Assembly: GCA_031268995.1 (NCBI GenBank)
Contig: JAIRWK010000320.1
Span: 1 to 46,046, forward strand
Origin: Planctomycetaceae bacterium
Lineage (GTDB): Bacteria > Planctomycetota > Planctomycetia > Pirellulales > Thermoguttaceae
Reading direction: 5' to 3'
Length of the DNA stretch: 46,046 bases
In this document: in pieces, positions 3,535 to 43,335 of the stretch
Numbering within the stretch: the stretch's first letter is position 1
Layout of the letters: each line of letters begins with the position of its first letter
The notes under the pieces: model-generated
The model's input: only the letters and a program-made list of their open reading frames with translations
What the model was told of the DNA's origin: nothing
Databases searched by the model: none
Made by a program: the position numbers and the translations under genes

Positions 3535-3855
3535 CTTCTCCGTCCCGTTAGGGACGGAATGCGAGAACTTTTCAAACGGCTTAATTGCAATCACATTGCG
3601 TCCAATACGGGACGCGGAATATTTTTGACATTATTTTCTACCAACATATTGTCCCTAACGGGACAGGATCGTCAGTTACTTGTAACCGATCATCAACTTT
3701 ATAATCTCGCCCCTGCGGGCTTTGTGTTTTGGGACATCCGATCCGGCGGTTGCGCTGCGCTACACCGCCGGTTATGCACATCACGCCTCATACGGGGCTA
3801 CGGAAAATATTCGACCGCCAAATTTCGATGTCGCTGTTTACAAAAAACTAGGTTT
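3535..3855 (+). repeat. Family B multi-hairpin repeat, copy 1
   Basis: cgtcccgttagggacggaatgcgagaacttttcaaacgg...cgtccaatacgggacgcgg...ttgtccctaacgggacaggatcg...gcggttgcgctgcgctacaccgccggttatgcacatcacgcc. Confidence 0.85.
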
Positions 3856-4040
3856 TAGAAATTCCCAATAGATGATTTTTAAAGCGACAAAAGAGACATA
3901 AATGACGATAGGAACATGTAAATATTGAGTAAATGATTACTCCATCCCTATCGTTTTTTGTGTTCCCCAAAACTGTTCGTAGGCGATATGGGCGGTAGGC
4001 TTCGCCCATACTGGCTAACTGTGTAATCCACAAACGATCT

Positions 4041-8238: not shown

Positions 8239-8245
8239 ATTTTTA

Positions 8246-8290
8246 ATTCGGTCGATTTTCAGTCGAAAGAAATCGACCGAATTCGAATAA
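8246..8290. repeat. Family E short palindrome between convergent genes, terminator-like
   Basis: attcggtcgattttcagtcgaaagaaatcgaccgaat. Confidence 0.8.
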
Positions 8291-8384
8291 AACATTGCCA
8301 TGAAATAAAATTACCATTAATGCCCTCAAGTTAGGGGTAGTACCTTTTGCTTTAGAAATTCCACGACACTCGCTGGATTTTTTA

Positions 8385-10175: not shown

Positions 10176-12824
10176 ATGAGAAAAATATTAAACCAATTAA
10201 GACCAATATCATTGCGATACTTGATGACAATCAATATTGTCCTTTCAATGACGGCGTTATTTTTGATGACCGTCGCAAATAACATTTTTGCCCAGCAAGA
10301 TGCCTTTCCGATTGAAAGGTTGCATACGGACTGGTTGTATCAGGATGTCGGATTGGATATTTCGGCTTGTTTCACTTCGGCGGAGAAAAATGAAGTGGAA
10401 ACAAAATTATTGACGAAAGTGATTGCCGATATTGAAAAACTTGGAGCTAAAAGCGAAGCGGAAAAACTTAACGCGAAATTCCAAAAATTATCAGACCAAA
10501 AATTAACGGGCAACGATCCACAATGGAAATCGCTTTACTTGGAAGCGGCAAATTTTCGGCGTGTCAAACGGCTTTCTATTTTGACACAAAAATTTCCGCA
10601 ACTTGTTTACACAAAGCATTGTGTTTTGGGCGGCAGTCATTACGCTTACACCGAAAATGCTACCGATGCCCAAATGCCGGAAAGAGCCAAACATAACCGC
10701 GATTGGCGAGTTGGTGCGGCTTTGTGTTTGATGAAAGTCAATGTAGACGGAACGGTTACGTCAGATATTTTGTATGAGGCAAAGACGGGTATTCTTCGTG
10801 ATCCAGATGTGTCGTTTGACGGGAAAAGAATATTGTTTTCGATGCGGCAAAATGACAAAGATGATGATTTTCATCTTTACGAATACGATGTTGCGTCAAA
10901 GAACACGCGGCAGTTGACGCAAGGAACAGGGTTTGCGGATATTGAGCCGTGCTATTTGCCCAACGGTAATATTTTGTTTACGTCAACACGTTGCGTGCAG
11001 ATTGTTGATTGTTGGTGGACGGAGGTTAGCAATTTTTATCTCATGGACAAGGACGGACGTTTTATGCGGCGAATTGGTTTTGATCAAGTTCACACAAATT
11101 ATCCAACCGTAACCGAAGACGGATGGGTTCTTTACACTCGATGGGATTACAATGATCGCGGTCAACTTTATCCGCAACCTCTCTTCCAAATGAATTACGA
11201 CGGAACTGCACAGACTGAATTTTACGGCAACAATTCATGGTTTCCGACGACCGTGTTACATGCCCGAATGATTCCGGGTTCGCAAAAGGTTGTGGCGGTT
11301 GCGAGCGGACATCACACCCACCAACGCGGAAAGTTGATTTTGATTGATCGAAGCAAAGGTACACAAGAAGCCGAAGGTGTACAATTGATTGCACCGAGAC
11401 AAGAAACTAAATCCGTTAAGGTTGATCATTATGGTCAAAGCGGCGATCAATTCCAATATCCGTATCCAATTGACGAAAATCATTTTCTTGTAACCTATCA
11501 ACCGGAAGGTTTTAAGAATAACACTTACACGATTCCGTTTGGTGTTTATTTGGTGGATGTTGACGGCAACAGAGAATTGTTGGCGTTTGATTCGTCGATT
11601 TCGAGTTGTCAACAAATTCCGCTTGCTGCGCGGGCGATTCCGACGTTGCGGGCTTCTGCTGTTGACTACGCGAAGGAGACGGGACAATTTTACGTTCAAG
11701 ATATTTACGAAGGTCCCGGTCTTAAAGGTGTTGAACGCGGCACAGTTAAATCGATTCGTGTTGTTGCATTGGAATTTCGGGCGGCGGGAATTCACAGCAA
11801 CGGTAACGGCGGACCGGCAGGCGGTGCGGTTGTGTCAACGCCAATCGCAATCGATAACGGCTCATGGGACGTTAAACGAGTTATCGGTAACGTTCCGGTA
11901 GAAAGAGACGGTTCCGCGTTTTTTGAAGTACCGGCAAGAACGCCGCTCTATCTCCAGATGCTGGATGAAAAGGGCAAGGTCGTTCAGACAATGCGGAGTT
12001 GGTCAACATTGCAACCCGGCGAATTATTTTCGTGTATTGGTTGCCATGAAAATAAAAATGAAACACCGTTCAACAAAGGCGGCAATAATCCTCTTTCAAA
12101 ACTTGCGTTACGGAGTTCACCCCAAAAGCCGGTTCCACTTGTTGCGAGCAATCGCGGATTCAGTTTCCCGTTGGATGTGCAACCGATTTTGAATAAAAAT
12201 TGTGTGAATTGCCATAAGGGCGACGGTCAAAAACTTGCGGATGGTTCGGATACGCCGTTTAGTCTTCTTGAGAAACGTTATGAGCCAAAAGTCGGAGAAA
12301 GATATAATCGAGCGGGACGCGATTTCAGCGAGGCGTACATAAATCTTGTTCAAAAGGGACGACCGAATGCGATTGTGAATTGGTTGAATGTTCAATCAAT
12401 ACCGCCGATGATAGAGCCGAGTACGCCAACATCACCTGACAAACCGGGTTCTGTAAATCATTATACGGGGTCGGCAAAGAGCAAGTTGATTACAAATTTG
12501 GAGGCAGGGCATCATGATGTGAAGTTGTCGGCGCGTGATATGGAGGTTTTGGCGTGTTGGATTGATTTAGCGGTGCCGTATTGTGGTTCATATACGGAAG
12601 CGAATATTTGGAATGATGACCAAAGAGCAGAATATGCGTATTATCTTGATAAACGTACACAAATGGAGGAGATTGAAAAACAGAATATAAAGAAACTACT
12701 CGACTTTAACAAAACCTCAATACTTCCCGAAGCATCCTTATTCATCACACCAAATATCGGCGGTGTAGACGCAAAAAACAACTTCAAAAAATCCTTCGTA
12801 GAAGCCGCAAAAACAAAAGAGTAA
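10176..12824 (+). CDS. HzsA-like protein (PD40/beta-propeller plus c-type heme motifs), exported
   Basis: Signal peptide, PD40-like stretches (DPDVSFDGKRILFSMRQ, EPCYLPNGNILFTSTR), CIGCHE and CVNCHK CxxCH motifs. Confidence 0.75.
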   Translation: MRKILNQLRPISLRYLMTINIVLSMTALFLMTVANNIFAQQDAFPIERLHTDWLYQDVGLDISACFTSAEKNEVETKLLTKVIADIEKLGAKSEAEKLNAKFQKLSDQKLTGNDPQWKSLYLEAANFRRVKRLSILTQKFPQLVYTKHCVLGGSHYAYTENATDAQMPERAKHNRDWRVGAALCLMKVNVDGTVTSDILYEAKTGILRDPDVSFDGKRILFSMRQNDKDDDFHLYEYDVASKNTRQLTQGTGFADIEPCYLPNGNILFTSTRCVQIVDCWWTEVSNFYLMDKDGRFMRRIGFDQVHTNYPTVTEDGWVLYTRWDYNDRGQLYPQPLFQMNYDGTAQTEFYGNNSWFPTTVLHARMIPGSQKVVAVASGHHTHQRGKLILIDRSKGTQEAEGVQLIAPRQETKSVKVDHYGQSGDQFQYPYPIDENHFLVTYQPEGFKNNTYTIPFGVYLVDVDGNRELLAFDSSISSCQQIPLAARAIPTLRASAVDYAKETGQFYVQDIYEGPGLKGVERGTVKSIRVVALEFRAAGIHSNGNGGPAGGAVVSTPIAIDNGSWDVKRVIGNVPVERDGSAFFEVPARTPLYLQMLDEKGKVVQTMRSWSTLQPGELFSCIGCHENKNETPFNKGGNNPLSKLALRSSPQKPVPLVASNRGFSFPLDVQPILNKNCVNCHKGDGQKLADGSDTPFSLLEKRYEPKVGERYNRAGRDFSEAYINLVQKGRPNAIVNWLNVQSIPPMIEPSTPTSPDKPGSVNHYTGSAKSKLITNLEAGHHDVKLSARDMEVLACWIDLAVPYCGSYTEANIWNDDQRAEYAYYLDKRTQMEEIEKQNIKKLLDFNKTSILPEASLFITPNIGGVDAKNNFKKSFVEAAKTKE

Positions 12825-12842: not shown

Positions 12843-12953
12843 AATCAGCACACAGATAACGTAGATTTTTTAAGGACAATCGCGGATCAGATTCTATTTT
12901 CTGATCTGCGAATATCTCCTCCAAATCTGTGTCGTTTGCGTGCTGATTTTTAA
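12843..12953. repeat. Family D palindromic element between convergent genes
   Basis: aatcagcacacagataacgtagatt...aaatctgtgtcgtttgcgtgctgattt. Confidence 0.85.
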
Positions 12954-15517: not shown

Positions 15518-15621
15518 TATACCGAAGCCGGTATGGGCGATAGGCTCCGCCATTGAACAACCGCTTCACGTTGTTGCGTTTGCGTGTCCAGCTTCGGGAA
15601 TTTCAAAACAGCTTGAGTATA
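15518..15621 (-). repeat. Family A element, copy
   Basis: TA-taccgaagccggtatgggcgatagg...cttgagta-TA. Confidence 0.92.
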
Positions 15622-16423: not shown

Positions 16424-16509
16424 CTTTTTTTAATCTCAAAAAAACAAAATTTCACAAGACCACAATTTCACACCCAACGGAATTGCTCTAGTGAGCTTCT
16501 AAAAAACTC

Positions 16510-16975
16510 TTCTTAGCCCTGCAAGGGCGTGATGTGCGTAACCGGCGGTGTAGCGTAGCGAAACCGCCGGACTCAACGCCCCAACCACGAGATTATTGTG
16601 GGCGAGTCATACCGTAGCCGGTAGGGGCGATAGGCTTCGCCCCTACCGGTTTCGGTACAAAAAACGCCGTCCCGCTAGGGACGGAATGCGAGGACTTTTC
16701 AAACGGTTAAACTGTAATCACATTGCGTCCCATACGGGACGCGGAATATTTTTTACACTATTTTCTACCAACATATTGTCCCTAACTGGACGGGATCATC
16801 GGTTACTTATCACCGATCATCAACCTCATAATCTTGCCCCCTGCGGGGCGTTGTGTTTTTGGGGCATACGATCCGGCGGTGCGCTACACCGCCAATTATG
16901 CACATCACGCCCCATGCGGGGCTACGGGAAATAGTCGCCAGTTAAATTCAAGGTTACTGTTCAAAAAATGTAGGT
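16510..16975. repeat. Family B repeat, copy 2: partial inverted part plus full + part, with an A-terminus palindrome at 16609-16660
   Basis: ccctgcaagggcgtgatgtgcgtaaccggcggtgtagcg (inverted) then cgtcccgctagggacggaatgcgaggacttttcaaacgg... Confidence 0.85.
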
Positions 16976-20802: not shown

Positions 20803-20847
20803 TACCGTCGTTACTTTGTCCTTTTAAAAAATATTAGCACGCAGATA

Positions 20848-21077
20848 TACTCATCGCACTATGAAATTCAGTTTTTATTTTTTTGGCAGGATTTACTGGA
20901 TAGCAGGATAGACAGGATTTCATTATATCCTGTAATCCTGCCTTATTACTCAAGCTGTTTTAAAATTCCCGAAGCTGAACACGCAAGCGTTGCATCGCGA
21001 AGTGGTTGTTCAAGGGCGAAGCCTACCGCCCATACCGGCTTCGGTATAAAAAGACAAATTTCATAGCATCTACAGTA
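20848..21077 (+). mobile_element. Family C element (TA-flanked MITE-like) inside D, itself containing A
   Basis: tactcatcgcactatgaaattcag...aaatttcatagcatctacagta; empty-site form of D seen elsewhere. Confidence 0.85.
20946..21046 (+). mobile_element. Family A element inside family C
   Basis: cctTA-ttactcaagctg...cttcggta-TAaaaagac versus intact C gtctTAaaaagat at about 35055. Confidence 0.9.
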
Positions 21078-21177
21078 TAGCGCAGACTTTTAAGGATATT
21101 CGTGGATCGGATTTATTTTTTGATCTTGCGAATATCCTCAAAATCTGCGTCGTCTGCGTGCTGATATTTTTATCTGA

Positions 21178-22277: not shown

Positions 22278-22322
22278 CGGGAATTTTTAAAAATACTATT
22301 TACCAAAAACAAATTACTCCAA

Positions 22323-22369
22323 ATTCATTCGATTTTCAGTCGATGGAAATCGACCGAATTCGAATAAAA
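22323..22369. repeat. Family E short palindrome
   Basis: attcattcgattttcagtcgatggaaatcgaccgaattcgaataaa. Confidence 0.75.
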
Positions 22370-22377
22370 TTAACTTT

Positions 22378-22480
22378 TATACTCAAGCTGTTTTAAAATT
22401 CCCGAAGCTGAACACGCAAGCGTAACAACGTGAAGCGGTTGTTCAAGAGCGAAGCCCATCGCCTTACCGGCTACGGTATA
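22378..22480 (+). repeat. Family A element, copy (99 bp between flanking TAs)
   Basis: TA-tactcaagctg...ggctacggta-TA. Confidence 0.93.
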
Positions 22481-30521: not shown

Positions 30522-30626
30522 TATACCGAAGCCGGTATGGGCGGTAGGCTTCGCCCCTGAACAACCGCTTCACGGTGTTGCGCTTGCGTGTTCAGCTCCA
30601 TGAATTTTAAAGTAGCTTGAGTATAA
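30522..30626 (-). repeat. Family A element, copy
   Basis: TA-taccgaagccggtatgggcggtagg...agcttgagta-TA. Confidence 0.93.
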
Positions 30627-32481: not shown

Positions 32482-32530
32482 TTCGGATTCGGTTGATTTC
32501 CATCGACTGAAAATCGACCGAATTTGAATG
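32482..32530. repeat. Family E short palindrome
   Basis: attcggattcggttgatttccatcgactgaaaatcgaccgaatttgaatg. Confidence 0.75.
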
Positions 32531-32599
32531 ATTTATTTTTGGCATTTTGGGGCAAATAGAATTTGAAAAAAATTTCCCATCAGACATCGTACCAACAAT

Positions 32600-33639: not shown

Positions 33640-33743
33640 TATACTCAAGCTGTTTTAAAATTCCCGAAGCTGAACACGCAAGCGTAGCATCGTGAAGCGG
33701 TTGTTCAAGGGCGATGCCTACCGCCCATACCAGCGTCGGTATA
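33640..33743 (+). repeat. Family A element, copy
   Basis: TA-tactcaagctgttttaaaattcccgaagctgaacacgcaagcgtagcatcg...cggta-TA. Confidence 0.92.
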
Positions 33744-34952: not shown

Positions 34953-35088
34953 TACTCATCGCACTATGAAATTCAGTTTTTATTTTTTTTGACAGGATTT
35001 ACAGGATGGCAGGATTTCATTATATCCTGACAATCCTGTAATCACGTTATCCTGTCTTAAAAAGATAAATTTCATAGCAGCTACGGTA
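34953..35088 (+). mobile_element. Family C element, intact copy
   Basis: tactcatcgcactatgaaattcagtttttatttttttTGACAGGAT...atcctgtcttaaaaagataaatttcatagcagctacggta; imperfect terminal inverted repeats. Confidence 0.85.
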
Positions 35089-37126: not shown

Positions 37127-37242
37127 TATACCGATGCCGGTATGGGCGGTAGGCTTCGCCCTCGAACAACCGCTTCGCGGTACTACGCTTACCTAACACT
37201 CTGCGTTGCAGGCTTACCGTAGCTTAAAACAGCTTGAGCATA
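37127..37242 (-). repeat. Family A element, long variant
   Basis: taccgatgccggtatgggcggtagg...cctaacactctgcgttgcaggcttaccgtagc. Confidence 0.9.
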
Positions 37243-37245
37243 AAA

Positions 37246-37740
37246 AACTCTTCCTAGCCCTGCAAGGGCGTGATGTGCATAACCGGCGGTGTAACGCAGC
37301 GCAACCGCCGGACTCAACGCCACAACTCCCCAAAGCCGCGCAGGGGCAAGATTATTTTGGGCGAGTGATCGTTTAATAATCTCGTTCTTGTGGGAAATTG
37401 TTGTAGCTGATTTTCCCCGTCCCGTTAGGTATGAAATGTCGGTAGAAAATATGGGATTAAAAAACGCCATCCTGTTAGGGACGGAATGCGAGGACTTTTC
37501 AAACAGTTTATCATAATCACATTGCGTCCCATACGGGACGCAGAATAGTTTTGGCATTATTTTCTACCAACATATTGTCCCTAACGGGACAGGATTGCAG
37601 GTTACTTAATAACCGGTCATAAACTTCATAATCTCGTCCCTACGGGGCTTTGTGTTTTTGGGCATCCGAATCCGGCAGTTACGTTGCGCTACACCGCTGG
37701 TTATGCACACCGCGTCCCATGCAGGGCTACGGAAAATATT
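37246..37740. repeat. Family B repeat, copy 3: partial inverted part plus full + part
   Basis: ccctgcaagggcgtgatgtgcataaccggcggtg...atcctgttagggacggaatgcgaggacttttcaaac... Confidence 0.85.
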
Positions 37741-37836
37741 CGCCCTTTGAACAACCACTTCGCAATGCTACGCTTGCCTAACGCTCTGCGTTGCAGGTTT
37801 ACGCAACTTCGGGAATTTTAAAACAGCTTGAGCATA
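37741..37836 (-). repeat. Family A element, long variant, truncated at a junction with family B
   Basis: cgccctttgaacaaccacttcgcaatgctacgcttgcctaacgctctgcg...cttgagcata. Confidence 0.88.
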
Positions 37837-39473: not shown

Positions 39474-39715
39474 CATTTTCACCTAATTTTTTTAACAAAA
39501 CAACCTCACTATACCGAAGCCGGTACGGGCGGTAGGCTTCGCCCATGAACAACCGCTTCGCGTTGTTGCGTTTGCCTAACGCTCTGCGTTACAGGTTTAC
39601 CGTAGCTTCAGGAATTTCAAAACAGCTTGAGTATAACTCATTGGAATATTTGTTGATTATTTCACGTCCGCGCAAAACCTGTTTAATGAGGTAATTGAGG
39701 TTAGTGTTTTAAATC
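39474..39715. repeat. Family F element, second copy, interrupted by family A
   Basis: aacctcattttcacctaatttttttaacaaaacaacctcac / actcattggaatatttgttgattatttcacgtccgcgcaaaacctgtttaatgagg. Confidence 0.8.
39512..39633 (-). mobile_element. Family A element, long variant (122 bp), inserted in family F
   Basis: cctcac-TA-taccgaagccggta...cttgagta-TA-actcattgg versus F copy 1 cctcat-TA-cctcattgg. Confidence 0.9.
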
Positions 39716-43093: not shown

Positions 43094-43200
43094 GACACAA
43101 TTCTCCTTCTATTGGATAAAGGAACATGAGAGACAAAAATGACACATAAACAACATGAAGGGAACTTCCCAAAACTGCTCCAATAATACTTTGTCCATTT

Positions 43201-43320
43201 CAAAATCAGCACGAAGATAACGCAGATTCTTTAAGGATAACCGCAGATCGGATTTTACTTTCTGATCTTGCGAATATCTTTTCTAAATCTGCGTCGTCTG
43301 TGTGCTGAATTTTTAAAATG
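43201..43320. repeat. Family D palindromic element
   Basis: aaaatcagcacgaagataacgcagattctttaaggataaccg...aaatctgcgtcgtctgtgtgctgaattttt. Confidence 0.85.
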
Positions 43321-43335
43321 GTTTTAAAAAATTCT

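Follow-up and report, generated by a model that had tools for sequence, protein, structure and literature searches.

Background

RUP (Repeat Unit of Pneumococcus) is a repeat of about 107 bp whose ends resemble those of the resident insertion sequence IS630-Spn1; its target is duplicated and it enters other repeats (PMC3049150). It reportedly inserts into or near insertion sequences, and 110 copies are described in a pneumococcal strain (PMC3049150). Correia elements and ERIC are presented, in the part of the source that deals with them, as short, non-coding, dispersed and mainly intergenic repeats, the highest copy number quoted in that part being 711 for ERIC in Photorhabdus luminescens (PMC10969869). 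For the IS630 relative ISY100, 34 of 39 products of transposition in vitro carried the TA duplication in its normal form (PMC2170065).

The DNA analysed here (the window, 46,046 nucleotides) forms a single contig in the 4.19-Mb assembly of a Planctomycetaceae bacterium, which has 438 contigs and is 86% complete. It contains copies of two short repeats, A and C, and of a palindrome, D. A and C are MITEs of a known kind but form a new family, unusual in its density, of which no description was found in the literature searched, whose coverage was partial. Our main reading, with a probability of about 0.93, is that A and C are IS630-derived MITEs and that at one locus C entered a TA of D and A then entered a TA of C.

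The nested locus

Read directly, positions 20838-21172 hold a 100-bp A within C within the D palindrome, with TA on both sides of each insert (Table 1). C begins at 20848 with tactcatcgcactatg, resumes after the right-hand TA of A with aaaagacaaattt and ends at 21077 with ...ctacagta. The profile scores of the nested A (110.8 bits) and of the left part of C (85.0 bits) exclude chance resemblance. When the flanks of the nested A are joined they match uninterrupted C at 80% over 100 bp, with a gap at an extra T (20946). This T turns the left A junction from TATAC into TATTAC; it is the sole flaw in the nesting and most simply a later 1-bp change.

The earlier note on this DNA had described a three-level nest with TA duplicated at every junction, and direct reading bears it out: each insert is TA-flanked, and intact copies of C and D carry a single TA. 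The order it gave (D, then C, then A) stands as well: C lies in a TA of D and A in a TA of C, and D predates C here. The sequence quoted for the intact C (34953-35088) is exact, gtctTAaaaagataaattt; this copy is also the empty-site match of another A, at locus L005 5969. The string quoted for D at 43210 and 12850 is right in giving both copies a single TA; it is the family consensus and not the sequence of the copies themselves, which show one and two differences from it (gcacgaagaTAacgcagatt at 43210 and gcacacagaTAacgtagatt at 12849). The start of A had been given as TTACTC; the canonical start is TACTC.

Scans of the window found no Rfam family and no tRNA. Its genes include DUF1598 and hydrazine synthase alpha-type domains, the latter as a middle-domain match (PF18582, 3.1e-34) in a reading frame at 10176-12824, in a gene setting that is otherwise ordinary. 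This gene content, like the neighbours retrieved with one gene, indicates a planctomycete.

Table 1. Repeats of the nested locus and related copies in the window
Feature	Position	Strand	Evidence
Left arm of interrupted D, cacgcaga (g at 20837 before it)	20838..20845	+	Direct reading against D consensus
TA, left copy of C-made duplication	20846..20847	.	Direct reading
C, left part	20848..20943	+	nhmmer, C model 1-107, 85.0 bits
TA, left copy of A-made duplication (extra T at 20946)	20944..20945	.	Direct reading; single TA in the empty C (34953-35088)
A, full length, tactcaagctg...cttcggta	20947..21046	+	nhmmer, A model 1-102, 110.8 bits
TA, right copy of A-made duplication	21047..21048	.	Direct reading
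C, right part	21049..21077	+	blastn against intact C, 91% over 33 bp (21047-21079)
TA, right copy of C-made duplication	21078..21079	.	Direct reading
D palindrome remainder, gcgcagact to about 21172	21080..21172	+	nhmmer, D model 8-104, 74.8 bits; blastn 84% over 100 bp
Intact C, empty site for A, TA-flanked	34953..35088	+	nhmmer, 120.9 bits
Intact D, empty site for C	43210..43315	+	nhmmer, 99.6 bits; direct reading
Intact D, empty site for C	12849..12952	+	nhmmer, 93.9 bits
A, full length, TA both sides	33642..33741	+	Profile match
A, full length, TA both sides	22380..22478	+	Profile match
A, full length, TA both sides	15520..15619	-	Profile match
A, full length, TA both sides; has empty-site match	30524..30623	-	Profile match
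A, variant of about 120 bp, TA both sides; has empty-site match	39512..39633	-	Profile match

TA flanks and empty sites

A and C have ends of the 5'-TAC...GTA-3' type of the IS630 insertion sequence, with TA on each side; when either element is taken out along with one TA, the joined flanks match an empty sequence. Flanks and empty sites were analysed in 60 stretches of the same genome (the window and further loci), 693 kb in total, in which TA makes up 5.5% of dinucleotides. TA adjoins 84% of left ends of A (296/353) and 87% of right ends (320/366), and the corresponding figures for C are 28/31 and 27/32. Among 307 full-length copies of A, TA stands on both sides in 234, on at least one side in 302 and on neither in only 5. 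About 13-16% of single A ends lack TA. The exceptions mostly have CA, TG, TC or TT instead, each one change away from TA. Outside the TA, the flanks of A and C are unrelated sequences with a mild A/T preference only.

The flanks of every A or C copy with both flanks present were joined on the assumption of a duplication of 0-8 bp and looked for throughout these 693 kb, leaving out the neighbourhood of the insertion itself. The unfiltered matches (n=105) include tandem and self artefacts, and the duplication length was taken from the filtered set alone. Clean, ungapped matches spanning the junction numbered 5, 11, 37, 17, 11, 4, 4, 4 and 4 for duplications of 0 to 8 bp. The peak at 2 bp is sharp, and 30 of its 37 restored sites are exactly TA. 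Examples are a C at L007 3532, whose empty site lies at L007 4874-4993 (96% over 120 bp), and an A at L002 5921, matched at L056 3791-3885 (97% over 95 bp). Five entries of C are found among the clean empty sites or the nestings in D. Both the 2-bp TA duplication of the Tc1/mariner/IS630 type and the mobility of A and C, which the earlier note had proposed, are upheld by these flanks and by empty sites in which only one TA is left, an outcome that also answers the refutation test of that note. Among 18 relatives with the neighbouring ManC-like gene, none keeps the next gene adjacent and A occurs there only in L228, a comparison that is uninformative for the site.

Nesting elsewhere and the order of insertion

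Nesting is common in this genome. Comparison of joined flanks with the consensus reveals independent single-TA nestings at other places, of A within A, C and D (in D at several TAs) and of C within D. Certain TAs recur as targets of A or C, namely gcacgcaga-TA-acgcag in D and gtct-TA-aaaag in C; the cases are too few for target hot spots in D and C to be claimed as a real preference.

The recurrence of A at the same TA in several copies of C, and of A or C at the same TA in several copies of D, would fit a D-C-A arrangement that was built once and then copied as a block, in which case it would not record three separate insertions. Three A copies at one TA of C are strongly unlike each other, being different variants that are 64-76% alike (below the family average), and are therefore separate insertions and not a copied C-A block. 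Composite copying does appear to occur elsewhere, but no second whole D-C-A turned up (after the locus itself, the best match of the 343-bp query spans positions 12-221 only), and both intact C and intact D exist. Even a copied block would have had to be built in the order D, C, A, and we consider block copying a highly improbable account of the locus. Nested copies of this kind can serve as a relative clock for amplification.

Abundance, distribution and age

Copy numbers were estimated only from contigs picked by number alone (230 kb), because the remaining stretches had been picked for having matches. A has 127 matches there and occupies 5.2% of bases; extrapolated to 4.19 Mb, this gives about 2,300 matches with fragments included. 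The corresponding estimate for C is about 330 matches, an upper figure since each strand of its palindrome is counted, and that for D is about 455 distinct places. A pattern search of the whole genome that tolerated a single mismatch finds 1,348 5' ends of A, compared with 0 for a reversed-pattern control; with the pattern extended by TA and the tolerance unchanged, the number is 1,248. The same 5'-end pattern occurs 52 times, once and once in three of 20 congeners and is absent from the rest, although diverged relatives may escape it: G013 has many A matches of 87-91%. Diverged A-like subfamilies, 82-93% identical to parts of the query, are seen in G013 (several contigs), G012, G014 and G019. 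Many other congeners have the C-type left end only (query 16-55). Different species thus seem to have had their own expansions of related MITE families.

Copies of A diverge from the consensus by a median of 11%, and some copies at different loci are identical; amplification therefore extended in time, with fairly recent members. With one family of about 100 bp occupying some 5% of the sampled genome, this is apparently a very large, lineage-restricted MITE burst.

Repeats that lie mostly between genes could also be kept mainly for a host function, as RNA hairpins with a role at transcript ends or in regulation, and not be parasites. Most A copies of at least 80 bp (112/131) are outside long reading frames, a placement that is also expected from selection against gene damage. 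C and D are predicted to form strong hairpins (z -7.5 and -9.5), but the folding of A does not exceed expectation (z -1.2 and -1.9), its copies are as far from the consensus as given above, and it is nearly absent from congeners. Host function is very unlikely to be what mainly maintains these repeats.

Relics of a probable IS630 parent

The genome that carries A and C (G000) has PF13358 (DDE_3) matches at eight places. The relic transposase combines HTH_33 and DDE_3, and its single gene between ends and TA flanks mark the element as an IS630 insertion sequence. The reading frame at L147 (249 aa), though truncated, scores 109.8 bits against the NCBIfam IS630 model NF033545 (cut-off 100). Past the transposase stop, L142-L145 read ...atgaaatctaaaacagcttgagta followed by TA, with small variants, and the complement matches A 1-22 at 86-91%. 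The left end of the relic at L147, TA followed by TACcgtagctactatgaagttcc, matches the inverted 3' end of C, taccgtagctgctatgaaattt, and further copies were seen; the IS left end to be compared with that inverted C end is taccgtagctactatgaagttcc. Upstream of the L147 transposase there is a TA-flanked-like ...acataccgtagctactatgaagttcc, where other relics have tatactgcgactactatgaaattcc, and both match the inverted 3' end of C. Because the termini of the relics match them, the 5' end of A is IS right-end sequence and both ends of C are left-end-like. The terminal inverted repeats of C (TACTCATaGCACTATGAAATTC and, inverted, TACcGTAGCTGCTATGAAATTC) pair in its predicted hairpin (z -7.5). Those of A (TACTCAAGCTG in the consensus and, at the inverted 3' end, TACCGTAGCCG) are recognisable, short and imperfect.

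An autonomous element with the same termini, for which the earlier note had suggested looking, is thus present in part: IS630 with matching ends occurs in the same genome, but every copy seen there is truncated, interrupted or has stops. No intact transposase of the A/C parent family was found in this genome, whose assembly is 86% complete and in which repeats assemble badly. With every parent copy seen broken, A and C would now be either stranded or dependent on a transposase that this incomplete assembly lacks. On the evidence of its sequence, the IS630 relic is probably the parent that moved A and C. Open-frame IS630 genes of congeners (L169, L172) are about 43-46% identical, and the termini flanking IS630 in congeners, TAC-N8-ACTTTAAAA, resemble the TACTGAAGCTACTTTAAAATTC variant of A. 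Solved structures were also searched, with the transposase of a relative, and none matched. A itself has inserted repeatedly in the transposase relics (L142 1778-1880 and L143-L145), in L142 in the interval separating the gene from the right end, as is also reported for RUP in pneumococcus.

In the proposed mechanism, an IS630 transposase acting in trans would bind the terminal repeats and cut the element out. The excised element would then be joined to a TA, which would be duplicated on repair. At the nested locus C entered a TA of the D palindrome, and A later entered a TA of that C. A highly improbable alternative is that the repeats spread independently of IS630 (by recombination, gene conversion or a RAYT/IS200-type enzyme) and that the TA flanks are part of the repeat, for the element ends are themselves TA, so that TATAC...GTATA can be read as a unit, and the inverted repeats are imperfect, but empty sites have one TA where filled sites have two, with the sharp peak at 2 bp, the sequences flanking the copies are otherwise unrelated, and the IS630 relics present here share these ends.

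With the MITEs, a broken parent, many filled and empty sites and a nested order found together in one genome, this is a clear case in which to ask how MITEs of bacteria arise from an IS630 element. The same genome is suited to asking how MITEs outlive their parent and whether nested insertions yield new elements.

A composite of A and a transposase remnant

In L143, L144 and L145, A occupies one and the same TA within the transposase gene and is followed by the 3' remnant of the gene and the IS right end; the uninterrupted site, ggttc-TA-aaataat, is found in L141 and L142. To the left of A, unrelated sequence stands where the rest of the gene would be, different in 3/3, and the right flanks differ too. 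The three composites have in common a derived change, AAATAAGG in place of AAATAAT. The simplest reading is that A inserted once and that A and the remnant then moved as a unit, the remnant of the gene having become, through the A within it, part of a further mobile element. On the left, however, only 1/3 is flanked by TA, which counts against movement as a unit. On balance we lean slightly towards nesting as a maker of new mobile units, with a composite of about 345 bp moved to at least three loci and the outer end of A as its new left end. If so, a MITE burst keeps producing new element types even after the death of its parent.

The D palindrome and other repeats

D was rejected as an IS630-type MITE: 26 aligned copies have no consistent TA flanks. 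Its boundaries are uncertain, since some copies have longer palindromic arms. A longer palindrome surrounds D at window 43150-43330, in L014 (from 516, and at about 3715-3870), in L059 (about 5960), and in L012 and L054. The longer arms are of the type gggaa(c/t)ttccaaaaactgcttcaataatactttgtccatttaaaatcag..., and the nested locus keeps part of an arm, ttactttgtccttttaaaa, at 20812-20830; the nest may have this longer arm as a fourth, older level. When the D core was searched in viral contigs, one contig matched.

Other repeats share the window. A palindromic repeat, aattcggtcgattttcagtcga...aaatcgaccgaattcgaataaaa, occurs at 8245-8292, 22322-22369 and 32486-32533 and is also a target of A, copies of which adjoin it at 22380 and 32380. 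A longer repeat containing ccggcggttgcgctgcgctacaccgccggttatgcacatcacgcc lies at 3540-3816, 16500-16940 and 37241-37745; its copies are 64-90% alike and have inverted halves.

Comparison with known systems

Like D, REP/BIME are strong intergenic palindromes, D having several hundred copies; A and C differ from REP/BIME in having TA duplications and IS ends. With Correia elements and ERIC, which are TA-associated bacterial MITEs, A shares its short length, non-coding nature, dispersal and mainly intergenic position, a likeness by description; its estimated copy number is about three times the 711 copies quoted for ERIC in Photorhabdus luminescens. IS630 and ISY100 use a TA target and duplicate it, as A and C do, whereas A and C are without a transposase and the resident IS copies seen are all broken. 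The proportion of A ends at TA (84-87%) is comparable to the 34/39 of ISY100, the figure for A also including decay. RUP is the nearest parallel: A is alike in size, in type of parent and in its presence inside the transposase gene of that parent. The likeness is one of description, and A differs in belonging to another phylum and in its estimated 2,300 or so copies and fragments, compared with 110 for RUP.
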